Assembly: GCA_011051615.1 (NCBI GenBank)
Contig: DRKU01000107.1
Location: forward strand, 1-33,196
Length of the DNA stretch: 33,196 bases
Reading direction: 5' to 3'
Source of the DNA: Gammaproteobacteria bacterium
GTDB lineage: Bacteria > Pseudomonadota > Gammaproteobacteria > CAMYNG01
Made by a program: the position numbers and the translations under genes. A model generated the notes under the pieces. It was given only the letters and a program-made list of their open reading frames with translations. It had not been told where the DNA came from and did no database searches. Shown here piece after piece: positions 1,544 to 32,375 of this stretch (positions within the stretch are counted from its first letter, which is position 1; every line of letters starts with the position of its first letter).

Positions 1544-2875
1544 GACGGCGTCCTGAACCACGCCGGCCAGTTGCTCGGCCAGTTTGCGGACCTGGTGGCC
1601 GTCTCGGCCCTCGACCATGACGCGAATGAGGGGCTCGGTCCCCGAGGGCCGCAACAGCACGCGGCCGGAGCCGTTGAGTTCGGCCTCGGCGTCGCGCACC
1701 GCGCTCTGGATGGCCTCGGAACTGCCGGGGTCGAAACGGGAGGCGAGACGCACATTGACCATGTGCTGGGGATATTTCTGCATGTCCTGGCGCAGCTCAT
1801 GGAGATCCTTGCCGCTGGTGACCATGGCCGAGAGTACCTGCAGACCCGAGACGATCCCGTCACCGGTGCTGGTGCGATCCAGGCAGATGATGTGCCCGGA
1901 GGATTCGCCACCGAGGTACCACTGCTCCCGCAGCAGCTTCTCCATCACGTAGCGGTCACCCACTTTCGCCCGCGCAAAGGGAATGTCGTGCCCGGCGAAG
2001 GCATGCTCCAGCCCGAGGTTGGTCATCTGCGTACCCACCACGCCGCCTTCGAGGGTACCGTTGCGCTGGCGGTCCATGGCAATGATATACAGCAGTTCGT
2101 CGCCATCCACCTCGTGACCATGACGATCGACCATGATGACGCGGTCGCCGTCACCATCGAAGGCGATCCCCACGTCGGCGCCGCGGGCGATCACTTCCGC
2201 ACGCAAGGCCTTGATATTGGTCGAACCCACGCCCTCGTTGATATTGACGCCGTCGGGTTCGGTCCCCAGCGTGGAGATATCGGCACCCAGTTCGCTGAAC
2301 ACCGCCGGCGCCACGTGGTAGGTGGCGCCATGACCGCAGTCCACCACCATGCGCAGGCCGGACAGGTTGACCCGGTGCGGAATGGTGCTCTTGCAGAATT
2401 CGATATAACGCCCGGGCGCATCCACCACGCGCACCGCCTTGCCCAGGTGGGCCGAGTCGTTGCACATCATGTCGCGATCCAGCTCGGCCTCGATGGCCAG
2501 CTCGATGTCGTCGGCAAGCTTGGTGCCTTCGGCGGAAAAGAACTTGATGCCATTGTCATAGTAGGGATTGTGCGAGGCGCTGATGACGATGCCCGCCTGG
2601 GCATGCAGGGTGCGCGTCAGGTAGGCGATGGCCGGAGTCGGCATGGGACCGAGCAGGTGAATATCCACGCCCGCGGCGGACAGGCCCGCTTCCAGTGCCG
2701 ATTCGAACATGTAGCCGGAGATACGCGTGTCCTTGCCGATGAGCACCCGGCTGTTGCCCTCGTTGGCCAGTACGCGACCCACCGCCCAGCCCAGCTTGAG
2801 CACGAAGTCCGGGGTAATGGGTGCTTCCCCCACCTTGCCGCGAATGCCGTCGGTACCAAAATATTTACGCGTCAT
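1535..2875 (-). CDS. glmM: Phosphoglucosamine mutase
   Basis: GlmM converts glucosamine 6-phosphate to glucosamine 1-phosphate for UDP-GlcNAc synthesis, feeding peptidoglycan and LPS. The 446-aa protein has the four phosphohexomutase domains. The phosphorylated serine is Ser101 in [13 protein letters not shown]. The metal-binding loop is FDGDGDR, the sugar-binding loop is GGESSGH, and the C-terminal phosphate-binding loop is [15 protein letters not shown]. The N-terminal [13 protein letters not shown] is diagnostic of GlmM. It overlaps folP by 11 bp, the classic folP-glmM coupling, so the two are probably translated together. Confidence 0.97.
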
Positions 2876-7686: not shown

Positions 7687-8159
7687 TCAGATGTACTTCA
7701 CCGCGAGGATCTCGAACTCCTTCACCCCGCCCGGTGTCTTGACCGTGGCGATGTCACCCTCGCGCTTGCCGATGAGGGCGCGCGCAATGGGCGAGTTGAC
7801 CGACAGCAGGCCGGCCTTGATGTCGGCCTCGTCCTCACCGACGATCTGGTAGGTAACCTCGTCGCCGGTCTCCTCGTCGGCCAACTCCACCGTCGCGCCA
7901 AAAATGATCTTGCCACCAGCATCGAGCCTGGTGACATCGATGATCTCGGCGTTGCTCAGCTTGGCCTCGATGTCCTGAATACGGCCCTCGATAAAGCTCT
8001 GCTGTTCACGCGCGGCATGGTACTCGGCATTCTCCTTGAGATCGCCGTGCTCGCGCGCCTCGGCAATGGCCTTGATGACCTTTGGCCGGGCCACGGACTT
8101 GAGTTCCCTGAGTTCCTCGCGCAGCTTGTCGGCGCCACGCTGGGTCAACGGTACCTTGC

Positions 8160-8163
<4 letters not shown>
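7687..8163 (-). CDS. greA: Transcription elongation factor GreA
   Basis: GreA enters the RNA polymerase secondary channel and stimulates cleavage of backtracked RNA. The 158-aa length is canonical. The N-terminal coiled coil starts [51 protein letters not shown] and carries the acidic D-E tip ([12 protein letters not shown]). The C-terminal FKBP-like domain includes [15 protein letters not shown]. The start ATG overlaps the carB stop (ATGA, 4 bp), indicating translational coupling with carB. Confidence 0.97.
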
Positions 8164-11381
<3,218 letters not shown>

Positions 11382-11402: not shown

Positions 11403-12554
11403 TCAGTGCTGGTGTTGCCGATGCTGGTCGATGAGTTCGATGAAGTCATCGAACAGGGGCGCCACATCGTGCGGCCCGGGGCTGGCCTCCGGGTGACCCT
11501 GGAAACTGAAGGCCGGCACGTCGGTGCGCGCCACACCCTGCAGGGAACCGTCGAACAGGGACTTGTGGGTGGCGCGCAGGGTGTCGGGCAGGCTGTCCTC
11601 GTCCACGGCGAAACCGTGATTCTGGCTGGTGATCAGGACCCGGCCGGAGTCGAGGTCCTGCACCGGGTGGTTGGCACCATGATGGCCGAACTTCATCTTC
11701 ACCGTGCGCGCACCGCTGGCCAGTGACAGCAACTGGTGACCGAGACAGATACCAAACACGGGCACGCCCGCAGCGGTGATGGCGCGGATGGCCTCGATGG
11801 CATAGGCGCAGGGTTCGGGATCGCCCGGGCCATTGGAGAGAAACACGCCATCGGGATTCATGGCCAGCACCTCGGCGGCCGGGGTGGTGGCGGGCACCAC
11901 GGTCACCTGGCAGTCGCGCTCCGCCAGCATGCGCAGGATGTTGCGCTTGACGCCGAAGTCATAGGCCACCACGCGACGCGTGCCGGTGCCGTGGCGGTCA
12001 TGGTCCTCGGGCAGGCCGCCGGCCAGTGACCATTCCCCCCAGGGCCAGTCGTAGCGCGCCTCGGTGGTCACCTCGCGTGCCAGGTCCATGCCCTTGAGGC
12101 CGGGGAAGTCCCGCGCCGCGGCCACCGCGGCGTCTTCATCGATGGACTCACCGGCGACGATGCAACCGTTCTGGGAACCCTTCTCGCGCAGGATGCGCGT
12201 CAGGCGGCGGGTGTCGATGCCACTGATGGCCACCACGCCCTGGCGTGCCAGGTACTCGGCGAGACCCTCCTCGGCACGCCAGCTGGACATGAGCGCCGGC
12301 AGGTCGCGAATGACGAGCCCGGCGGCATGCACGACATCGGATTCCGCGTCTTCATGATTGGTGCCCACGTTACCGATATGTGGACAGGTCAGGGTAACGA
12401 TCTGGCGGGCGTAGGAGGGATCCGTGAGGATCTCCTGATAACCGGTCATGGCAGTGTTGAACACCACCTCCCCCACTGTCTGGCCGTCGATACCAATGGC
12501 TTCGCCACGGAACAGGCTACCGTCTTCGAGTGCAAGCAGGGCCGGTTTTCTCAA
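11403..12554 (-). CDS. carA: Carbamoyl-phosphate synthase small subunit (glutamine amidotransferase)
   Basis: CarA hydrolyses glutamine and channels ammonia to CarB. The 383-aa protein has an N-terminal CarA-specific domain ([48 protein letters not shown]) and a C-terminal class I glutaminase. The glutaminase has the nucleophile Cys in [15 protein letters not shown] and the His/Glu pair in [13 protein letters not shown]. The start is a TTG at 12552-12554, supported by a near-perfect GAGGAGGT ribosome site 3-4 nt upstream and by family alignment. It is first in a carA-carB-greA-DUF4149 operon and is preceded by a terminator-like leader structure. Confidence 0.97.
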
Positions 12555-12588
12555 GAGACCTCCTCATCCGGGCATAAACGGGACGTGC

Positions 12589-12623
12589 AAAAAACGGGAG
12601 GCATCCCCCAGGGGAGCTCCCGT
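12589..12623 (-). terminator. Attenuator-like intrinsic terminator in the carA leader
   Basis: On the minus strand a 7-bp ACGGGAG/CTCCCGT stem (617-623 with 594-600), with internal C/G pairing, is followed by six T. It ends only 34 nt before the carA TTG. Three small hairpins lie just upstream: GCCC-GAAA-GGGC at 12633-12644, one at 12649-12660 and one at 12659-12679. This suits either termination of dapB read-through or premature termination controlling carAB, which is pyrimidine/arginine regulated in many bacteria. No leader peptide or known riboswitch was recognised. Confidence 0.75.
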
Positions 12624-12684
12624 CAGATTCGTGCCCGAAAGGGCGTATGGAACTGGTTCCAGCCCCGTCTTCAGGCTGGCGGCC

Positions 12685-12713
12685 ATTCTACCCAATTTCG
12701 CCGCGCGTCACCA
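12685..12713 (-). promoter_or_regulatory. Candidate carA promoter
   Basis: A minus-strand TAGAAT (-10, 12685-12690) lies 17 bp from a poor TGGTGA (-35, 12708-12713). Initiation there would give a leader of roughly 125 nt containing the small hairpins and the terminator-like structure. The -35 matches consensus at only three positions. Confidence 0.35.
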
Positions 12714-12782
12714 GATCCGGATGGCTTGGCGTGGCGCCCGCGACGTGTGTGCAGAAAGCCATGGAGCGGGGCTGTTGGGCCT

Positions 12783-12856
12783 GGTGCCGGTGGGGTGAGT
12801 CCCGAAGCGCGACTCACGCAGGGCCGGAGCGCGGAGGGACCCACCGCACCGGCACC
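12783..12856. repeat. Stem-loop element after dapB
   Basis: Outer arms pair 10 bp perfectly (783-792 with 847-856) and continue with 4 more bp after a bulge. Inside is a 6-bp hairpin TGAGTC/GACTCA (796-801 with 811-816). The structure starts 8 nt after the dapB stop and lacks a T run, so it could stabilise or punctuate the dapB mRNA end. It lies in the 310-bp dapB-carA spacer, whose other contents are the carA leader structures; about 70 bp in the middle show nothing recognisable. Confidence 0.65.
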
Positions 12857-12864
12857 TACAGCAT

Positions 12865-13722
<858 letters not shown>

Positions 13723-32010: not shown

Positions 32011-32375
32011 GGGGGCGACATGGCTTCGACGTGGATCGCGAAACCCGAGGGGCATGCCGAGGTGCGGATTACCTCGTAAAACCATCTGCAAATCATATAG
32101 TTGCCAACGACGACAACTACGCACTAGCTGCTTAAAAACCAGCCTGGTGCCCTCTGGCCGGCGGCGTGCCTGTGCGCACCGGATCCCAGGGGTCATCCCA
32201 CACAGGATCGCGCCAAAGCTCGTCCGGGGCAGCGGCGTTAAAACCTTACCGGACTCGCCAGTGGTTTTCCCCGCCCGCCGGGTAACTGCTGGTCAAATCA
32301 ATAGGCGTGGATAAGCATGTAGATCCGAAGGCAGAGGATTTGCGGACGCGGGTTCGATTCCCGCCGCCTCCACCA
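32011..32375 (+). ncRNA. ssrA: Transfer-messenger RNA (tmRNA, SsrA)
   Basis: tmRNA rescues stalled ribosomes with SmpB and tags the nascent protein for proteolysis. The 5' end GGGGGCGACATGGCTTCGAC is the standard tmRNA start. Its acceptor arm GGGGGCG pairs with CGCCTCC before the encoded ACCA at 32372-32375. The tag reading frame at 32103-32135 encodes ANDDNYALAA then TAA, one residue different from E. coli ANDENYALAA. GC-rich pseudoknot segments follow, and the T arm is GCGGGTTCGATTCCCGC. Length (365 nt) is normal. A displaced copy of the last 22 nt lies downstream. Confidence 0.98.
32354..32375 (+). repeat. Attachment-site-like direct repeat, copy 1 (in ssrA)
   Basis: These are the last 22 nt of tmRNA, from the T loop to CCA. 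The identical 22 bases recur at 32508-32529. A T-loop-to-3'-end block is the typical core for tyrosine-recombinase integration into tRNA and tmRNA genes. Confidence 0.8.

Follow-up and report, generated by a model that had tools for sequence, protein, structure and literature searches.

A conserved terminator in the carA leader, most likely a pyrimidine-responsive attenuator of carAB

The carAB genes feed both arginine and pyrimidine synthesis. Their control has been worked out in Escherichia coli and, in part, in Pseudomonas; Vibrio is known to have a 3' UTR RNA. For Pseudomonas syringae, PMC4997734 reports a single carA start site 118 bases before carA and a 3' end mapped just after the terminator. 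In the full fusion, loss of the hairpin raises expression and uracil lowers it; arginine is described as raising expression, arginine and uracil together have little effect, and qRT-PCR gave no change (PMC4997734). The same source cites Kwon 1994 for P. aeruginosa, in which a hairpin and a leader peptide were described and the pyrimidine response was lost on removal of the hairpin. In Polynucleobacter a carA motif, SRC-12-1, is reported, for which PMC8632094 suggests translation control and a riboswitch. CarZ of Vibrio cholerae is a 3' UTR sRNA acting on carA (PMC7398697). The carA gene goes unmentioned in the main texts of Naville 2010 and of PMC8297930, a 3'-end mapping paper, and no paper on the element described here across these groups was found in searches of an open-access library.

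The window, i.e. the whole stretch of 33,196 nucleotides analysed here, carries on its minus strand the gene order dapB (12865-13668), a gap of 310 nt, carA with a TTG start at 12554, carB and greA, the start of greA overlapping the stop of carB. The features of the locus are as follows.

12708-12713, minus strand: candidate -35 hexamer TGGTGA, 17 nt before the -10 (sequence; weak, three of six consensus bases)
12685-12690, minus strand: candidate -10 hexamer TAGAAT of the carA promoter (sequence; kept in L010, TACAAT in L011 and L012)
12633-12679, minus strand: upstream part of the leader with three small inverted repeats, kept at genus level only (sequence, fold, by-eye comparison)
12594-12623, minus strand: terminator hairpin with CGGGA...TCCCG base, the putative attenuator core (terminator scan, fold, alignment, match to model R1 at 32.0 bits, the locus being in the training set)
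12589-12594, minus strand: U-tract of six T (terminator scan, sequence)
12579-12588, minus strand: downstream flank GCACGTCCCG (sequence, flanks of relatives)
12559-12565, minus strand: Shine-Dalgarno of carA, GAGGAGG (sequence)
11403-12554, minus strand: carA, carbamoyl-phosphate synthase small subunit, TTG start (TIGR01368, 481 bits)
8160-11381, minus strand: carB (NF003671, 1774 bits)
7687-8163, minus strand: greA, last gene of the apparent operon (NF001264, 265 bits)

As read from the sequence, the carA leader forms the stem-loop ACGGGAGCTCCCCTGGGGGATGCCTCCCGT at 12623-12594, with the six U (12594-12589) set directly on the hairpin and a further 34 nt (12588-12555) leading to the carA start. 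The minimum free energy of the hairpin is -19.3 kcal/mol, with a z value of -3.1 against dinucleotide shuffles. Coordinates and folding energy confirm the original prediction of an intrinsic terminator with six T placed 34 nt before the TTG of carA. A terminator scan of 11500-13200 returned four terminator-like rows versus 0.5 expected, two of the four being this same hairpin. The folding z value is -2.76 for the 93-nt carA leader and -0.13 for the 181-nt stretch 12720-12540.

Three small hairpins had also been predicted upstream. As sequence they are present (12679-12659, 12660-12649 and 12644-12633), but the first two overlap by two bases, and the predicted fold puts one longer imperfect hairpin in place of two of the three. 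On inspection by eye they recur in L010, a genome of the same genus, and are absent in two other family members, L011 and L012. They look like a genus-level, incidental feature, and a regulatory role for them is not borne out. The absence of a known riboswitch signature agrees with an Rfam scan of the window leader, which gave no family at the gathering cut-off; at E values up to 10 the scan returned only four microRNA families, all far below their own cut-offs. Elsewhere in the window a tmRNA gene lies at 32011-32375 on the plus strand (Rfam RF00023, 236 bits), and a long GC-rich inverted repeat occupies 12770-12860 between dapB and the carA promoter; part of this repeat matches eight further places in the genome and is REP-like.

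For comparison, the first carA loci from 37 genomes called relatives and from 80 named records were used, 109 of 110 loci being scanned (L038 was left out). Terminators of the same look before carA passed the pick at 59 of the 109 loci, and more with shorter U-tracts were seen on a second look. The alignment holds 62 leaders (59 picked, nine dropped, 12 added by hand). Because this set was hand-picked for CG[GA]G stems, model R1 is tuned to such stems and the stem base must be judged on other data. In the 62 aligned leaders a helix of 12 pairs is paired at 90.1%, with changes on both sides in nine of the 12 pairs. The covariation score is 0.496 versus 0.240 in shuffles and is reached by none of 500 shuffles; the count of pairs with both-side change, taken alone, is reached by 68 of 500. 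Sliding the partner drops the score to 0.19 or less. The check put forward with the original prediction, an alignment of carA leaders from relatives, delivers a covarying helix; antiterminator pairing across relatives is at chance level.

Model R1 was run with strict filters on 229 genomes of the class, and its matches were set against the places of carA. The 32.0-bit match in the window is the top match of its own genome. Beyond the first 37 genomes there are 105 R1 rows, of which 54 share the strand of carA and stand 4-122 nt before it, seven are found there on the opposite strand and 44 lie elsewhere; at 30 bits or more, 37 are at carA and 16 elsewhere. A carA gene is found in 194 of the 229 genomes; less 29 of the first set these give 165, of which the best 132 were used for the pairing, ORF, -10 and dapB counts. 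Removal of seven that repeat or resemble training loci leaves 125 independent genomes. Among these 125 (from the best 132 of 165), R1 matches just upstream of carA in 49 and is unmatched at E ≤ 0.01 in 76, and the strict element is present in 70.

Judged on these further leaders, again from the best 132 of 165, the CGGGA stem base occurs in 62 of 101 leader terminators versus 6 of 470 other terminators. An alternating pyrimidine-purine (YR) flank, a pattern set after the leaders had been viewed, occurs in 58 of 101 versus 10 of 470; the 470 controls were drawn from the 80 named loci rather than the 125 genomes. On inspection the flank of the window fits this pattern in part, and its first five bases, GCACG, are common to L010-L012. 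Outside the training set, the same-family genome G003 carries the flank CTTTGCACATCTG and an R1 match of 34.2 bits, the top in its genome. By eye the YR flank ends in CUG about 11-13 nt past CCCG in many leaders, a spacing like the one at the his pause and other hairpin-stabilised pauses. T predominates at the first three positions after the stem (75, 74 and 64 of 75, the first two being partly required by the pattern). In 55 of 133 element leaders only three T follow the last paired base, and such sites would terminate weakly. The apical parts of the hairpin are variable, and the most conserved positions belong to the stem base or the U-tract.

The same stem-base signature is found at seven Pseudomonas loci (L077, L085, L091, L098, L109, L111 and L115), and one alignment and model covers both the window and the Pseudomonas leaders, both being in the training set. 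With a slightly looser pattern the element stands before carA in 31 of 50 Burkholderiales loci (the best 30 of 78 plus 20 chosen; L303 repeats training locus L073). It was not found at 10 of 11 Vibrionaceae, four Aeromonas and six Enterobacterales loci, and the single hit, at Vibrio L051, was dropped as spurious. Sequence comparison thus indicates that a terminator before carA is conserved in many related bacteria. A wider regulon was sought at 18 further R1 places in the 37 relatives and rejected: one (L165) is the carA leader of G003, and by eye the other 17 are without a recognised pyrimidine gene, many of them resembling gene-end terminators. One place in G007 (C11:17328-17401, L151), flanked by two genes without relation to carA, is strongly matched on either strand, at 32.8 and 29.6 bits; in the carA leader of G007 (L024) the element was not found.

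In the window TAGAAT (12690-12685) is followed by 61 nt and then the hairpin, and in L011 TGGTCA stands at the same -35 spacing (by eye). Since a promoter scan of 11500-13200 gave no hit, the promoter call rests on TAGAAT, its conservation in L010-L012 and the statistics of the family; a carA start site near 12678 appears plausible from this position. The best 132 of 165 leaders show an excess of -10-like hexamers at 21-60 nt upstream of the hairpin (counts of 23, 31, 14 and 25 in the ten-base bins versus about 5), and between hairpin and start codon there are 15 versus 17.8 in shuffles; the controls here, as for pairing and ORFs, are single-base shuffles. The TAGAAT of the window, which begins at a distance of 67 nt, falls slightly beyond the family peak, in a bin with 9 versus 5.3 shuffled. 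From the -10 geometry the hairpin is therefore promoter-proximal and most likely part of the carA transcript. The case named as refuting the original prediction, a promoter downstream of the hairpin, finds no support, as the hexamers are enriched upstream and not between hairpin and start.

With a terminator between candidate promoter and carA, a covarying helix, and a Pseudomonas counterpart with a mapped 3' end and a uracil effect (PMC4997734), the predicted controlled premature termination of carAB is supported. We consider it probable that the element attenuates transcription of the carA-carB-greA operon in cis, serving pyrimidine feedback and acting at the terminator itself. RNA polymerase would begin near 12678, some 55 nt ahead of the hairpin. 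At the U-tract a share of the complexes would stop and release a roughly 90-nt leader RNA, the others continuing into carA. The stopped fraction would rise with plentiful pyrimidine nucleotides and fall when they are scarce, the outcome being feedback on carbamoyl phosphate synthesis. The switch would lie at the terminator itself, by way of RNA polymerase or a bound factor, and not in a leader peptide or a competing antiterminator; we infer a sensor of this kind in the present organism.

More tentatively, there may be one carAB attenuator family across Gammaproteobacteria including Burkholderiales, marked by a promoter-proximal hairpin with a near-invariant CGGGA base, a short U-tract and the YR flank, which would sense pyrimidines at RNA polymerase or via one bound factor, with neither leader peptide nor alternative fold, and whose feedback would extend to GreA. 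The greA gene, last in the apparent operon behind the leader terminator, codes for a transcript-cleavage factor, and a feedback on termination is possible.

A rather unlikely version of the sensor, overlapping with the attenuator at the terminator itself, is that PyrR charged with UMP binds the hairpin and promotes termination. PyrR is encoded in the same genome (G000:C50, NF003545) in a ruvX-pyrR-pyrB cluster (neighbours named by eye), and it accompanies the element: it is present in 67 of 70 element genomes versus 45 of 55 others (from the best 132 of 165; odds ratio 5.0, p 0.017, kinship ignored), and in 15 of 21 versus 3 of 29 among 50 named genomes chosen of 80 (odds ratio 21.7). However, six named genomes (four Halomonadaceae, Gilvimarinus and Pseudoalteromonas) carry the element without PyrR, as do G168, G171, G184, G022 and G012, of which G022, G171 and G184 are near-complete, and the less complete G003 and G010. 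On account of such exceptions PyrR as the sole sensor was rejected. Furthermore, by eye a terminator before pyrR was not seen in the same genome, the apical parts of the hairpin vary among leaders, and the PyrR-site RNA family held by Rfam is unmatched in the window leader up to E 10. From its distribution PyrR would be a candidate sensor, not a requirement.

Distinctly less probable is an unregulated, constitutive partial terminator which closes the dapB transcript or sets a fixed low level of carA. In its favour, dapB precedes the element in the window, and a terminator needs no sensor to act. Yet a dapB end within 450 nt is no commoner in leaders with the element (24 of 74) than without (19 of 56; best 132 of 165, by a rough motif search that may miss dapB), and the idea of a dapB terminator was rejected on this lack of association. 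G079 has three tRNA genes ahead of carA, on the carA strand (L199 217-506, minus strand), with the element still present. The -10-like signal upstream of the element, the sequence kept beyond the needs of a terminator and the uracil effect in P. syringae (PMC4997734) also speak against it.

It is quite improbable that the hairpin instead controls stability or translation, by protecting the 5' end of the mRNA or through competition of its 3' arm for the Shine-Dalgarno. In Burkholderiales the gap from -10 to hairpin is 15-18 nt in 18 of the 29 cases with a -10 found, which would place the hairpin right at the 5' end. Between the 3' arm and the downstream region pairing is somewhat above chance (-8.99 versus -7.96 kcal/mol, with 14 of 133 leaders at p ≤ 0.05), but the Shine-Dalgarno yields part of this signal trivially. 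The 3' flank likewise pairs with downstream sequence above chance (13 of 133 at p ≤ 0.05), an effect attributed to the self-complementarity of the flank and its position within the stretch compared. The T-rich positions after the stem, and the 3' end mapped there in P. syringae (PMC4997734), speak against this reading.

Signals for an alternative fold or a leader peptide were at chance level. For the 5' arm and the 60 nt preceding it, the mean pairing energy is -9.40 versus -9.41 kcal/mol in shuffles (5 of 132 at p ≤ 0.05; best 132 of 165), and the 3' flank likewise pairs with the upstream leader at chance level. ORFs entering the hairpin occur in 88 of 126 leaders versus 93.4 shuffled, and those with a Shine-Dalgarno-like sequence in 15 versus 25.7 (both from the best 132 of 165). 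The layouts of the classical trp, Bacillus PyrR and E. coli pyrBI attenuators, which have an antiterminator or a leader peptide, are therefore a misfit.

A metabolite riboswitch with its aptamer upstream of or inside the hairpin is very improbable; PMC8632094 puts forward a carA motif of beta-proteobacteria as a candidate riboswitch, but here the upstream leader is not kept in L011 and L012, the apical part is variable, the conserved positions are those of stem base and U-tract, and Rfam gave no match. Attenuation of the pyrBI type, in which a translated leader peptide couples the position of the ribosome to UTP-dependent pausing, is hardly credible. PMC4997734 cites a report of a leader peptide in P. 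aeruginosa, but from 12680 to the hairpin the window lacks any ATG, GTG or TTG, leader ORFs are at chance, the Burkholderiales spacing leaves little room, and in P. syringae a start codon was not found (PMC4997734).

A conserved leader terminator thus most likely attenuates carAB in response to pyrimidines, a response that we infer here. The kind of attenuator is already known from Pseudomonas; its breadth and shared signature were not found in print. The points of interest are this breadth, the signature and the apparent absence of peptide and antiterminator, which raises the question of how a bare terminator might sense pyrimidines.

Compared with known systems, the Bacillus PyrR-dependent attenuators and E. 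coli pyrBI share premature termination in a pyrimidine leader, whereas the present element is without antiterminator signal, leader-ORF signal or PyrR-site match. CarZ shares RNA-level feedback on carAB but base-pairs from the 3' end (PMC7398697), in a group where the element was not found. SRC-12-1 of Polynucleobacter, as described in PMC8632094, is alike in the hairpin directly before carA and in the promoter upstream, which in the window is a candidate. Rfam RF01676 (P31 sRNA) matches Pseudomonas L077 over the terminator (2406-2483, minus strand) at 56.3 bits on the strand opposite to carA; on the carA strand of L077 it reaches 25.2 bits, below the cut-off of 40, and it is unmatched in the window. 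In seven relatives Rfam gave only P31 and tRNAs. The experimental P32 RNA reads in the direction of carA (PMC4997734), and the Rfam P31 match is on the opposite strand.

The upstream leader of the window looks unrelated to that of Pseudomonas. The window differs from P. aeruginosa in having no leader-peptide start codon; such a codon was not found in P. syringae either (PMC4997734), and the leader peptide is therefore doubtful as a defining feature. An element common to carA leaders over much of Gammaproteobacteria would bring together the stem-loop of P. aeruginosa, the P32 RNA and perhaps the motif of Polynucleobacter. The likeness to the Pseudomonas carAB leader and the P32 RNA of P. syringae lies in the dapB-carA gap and in the order of promoter (a candidate in the window), terminator and carA-carB-greA (PMC4997734).
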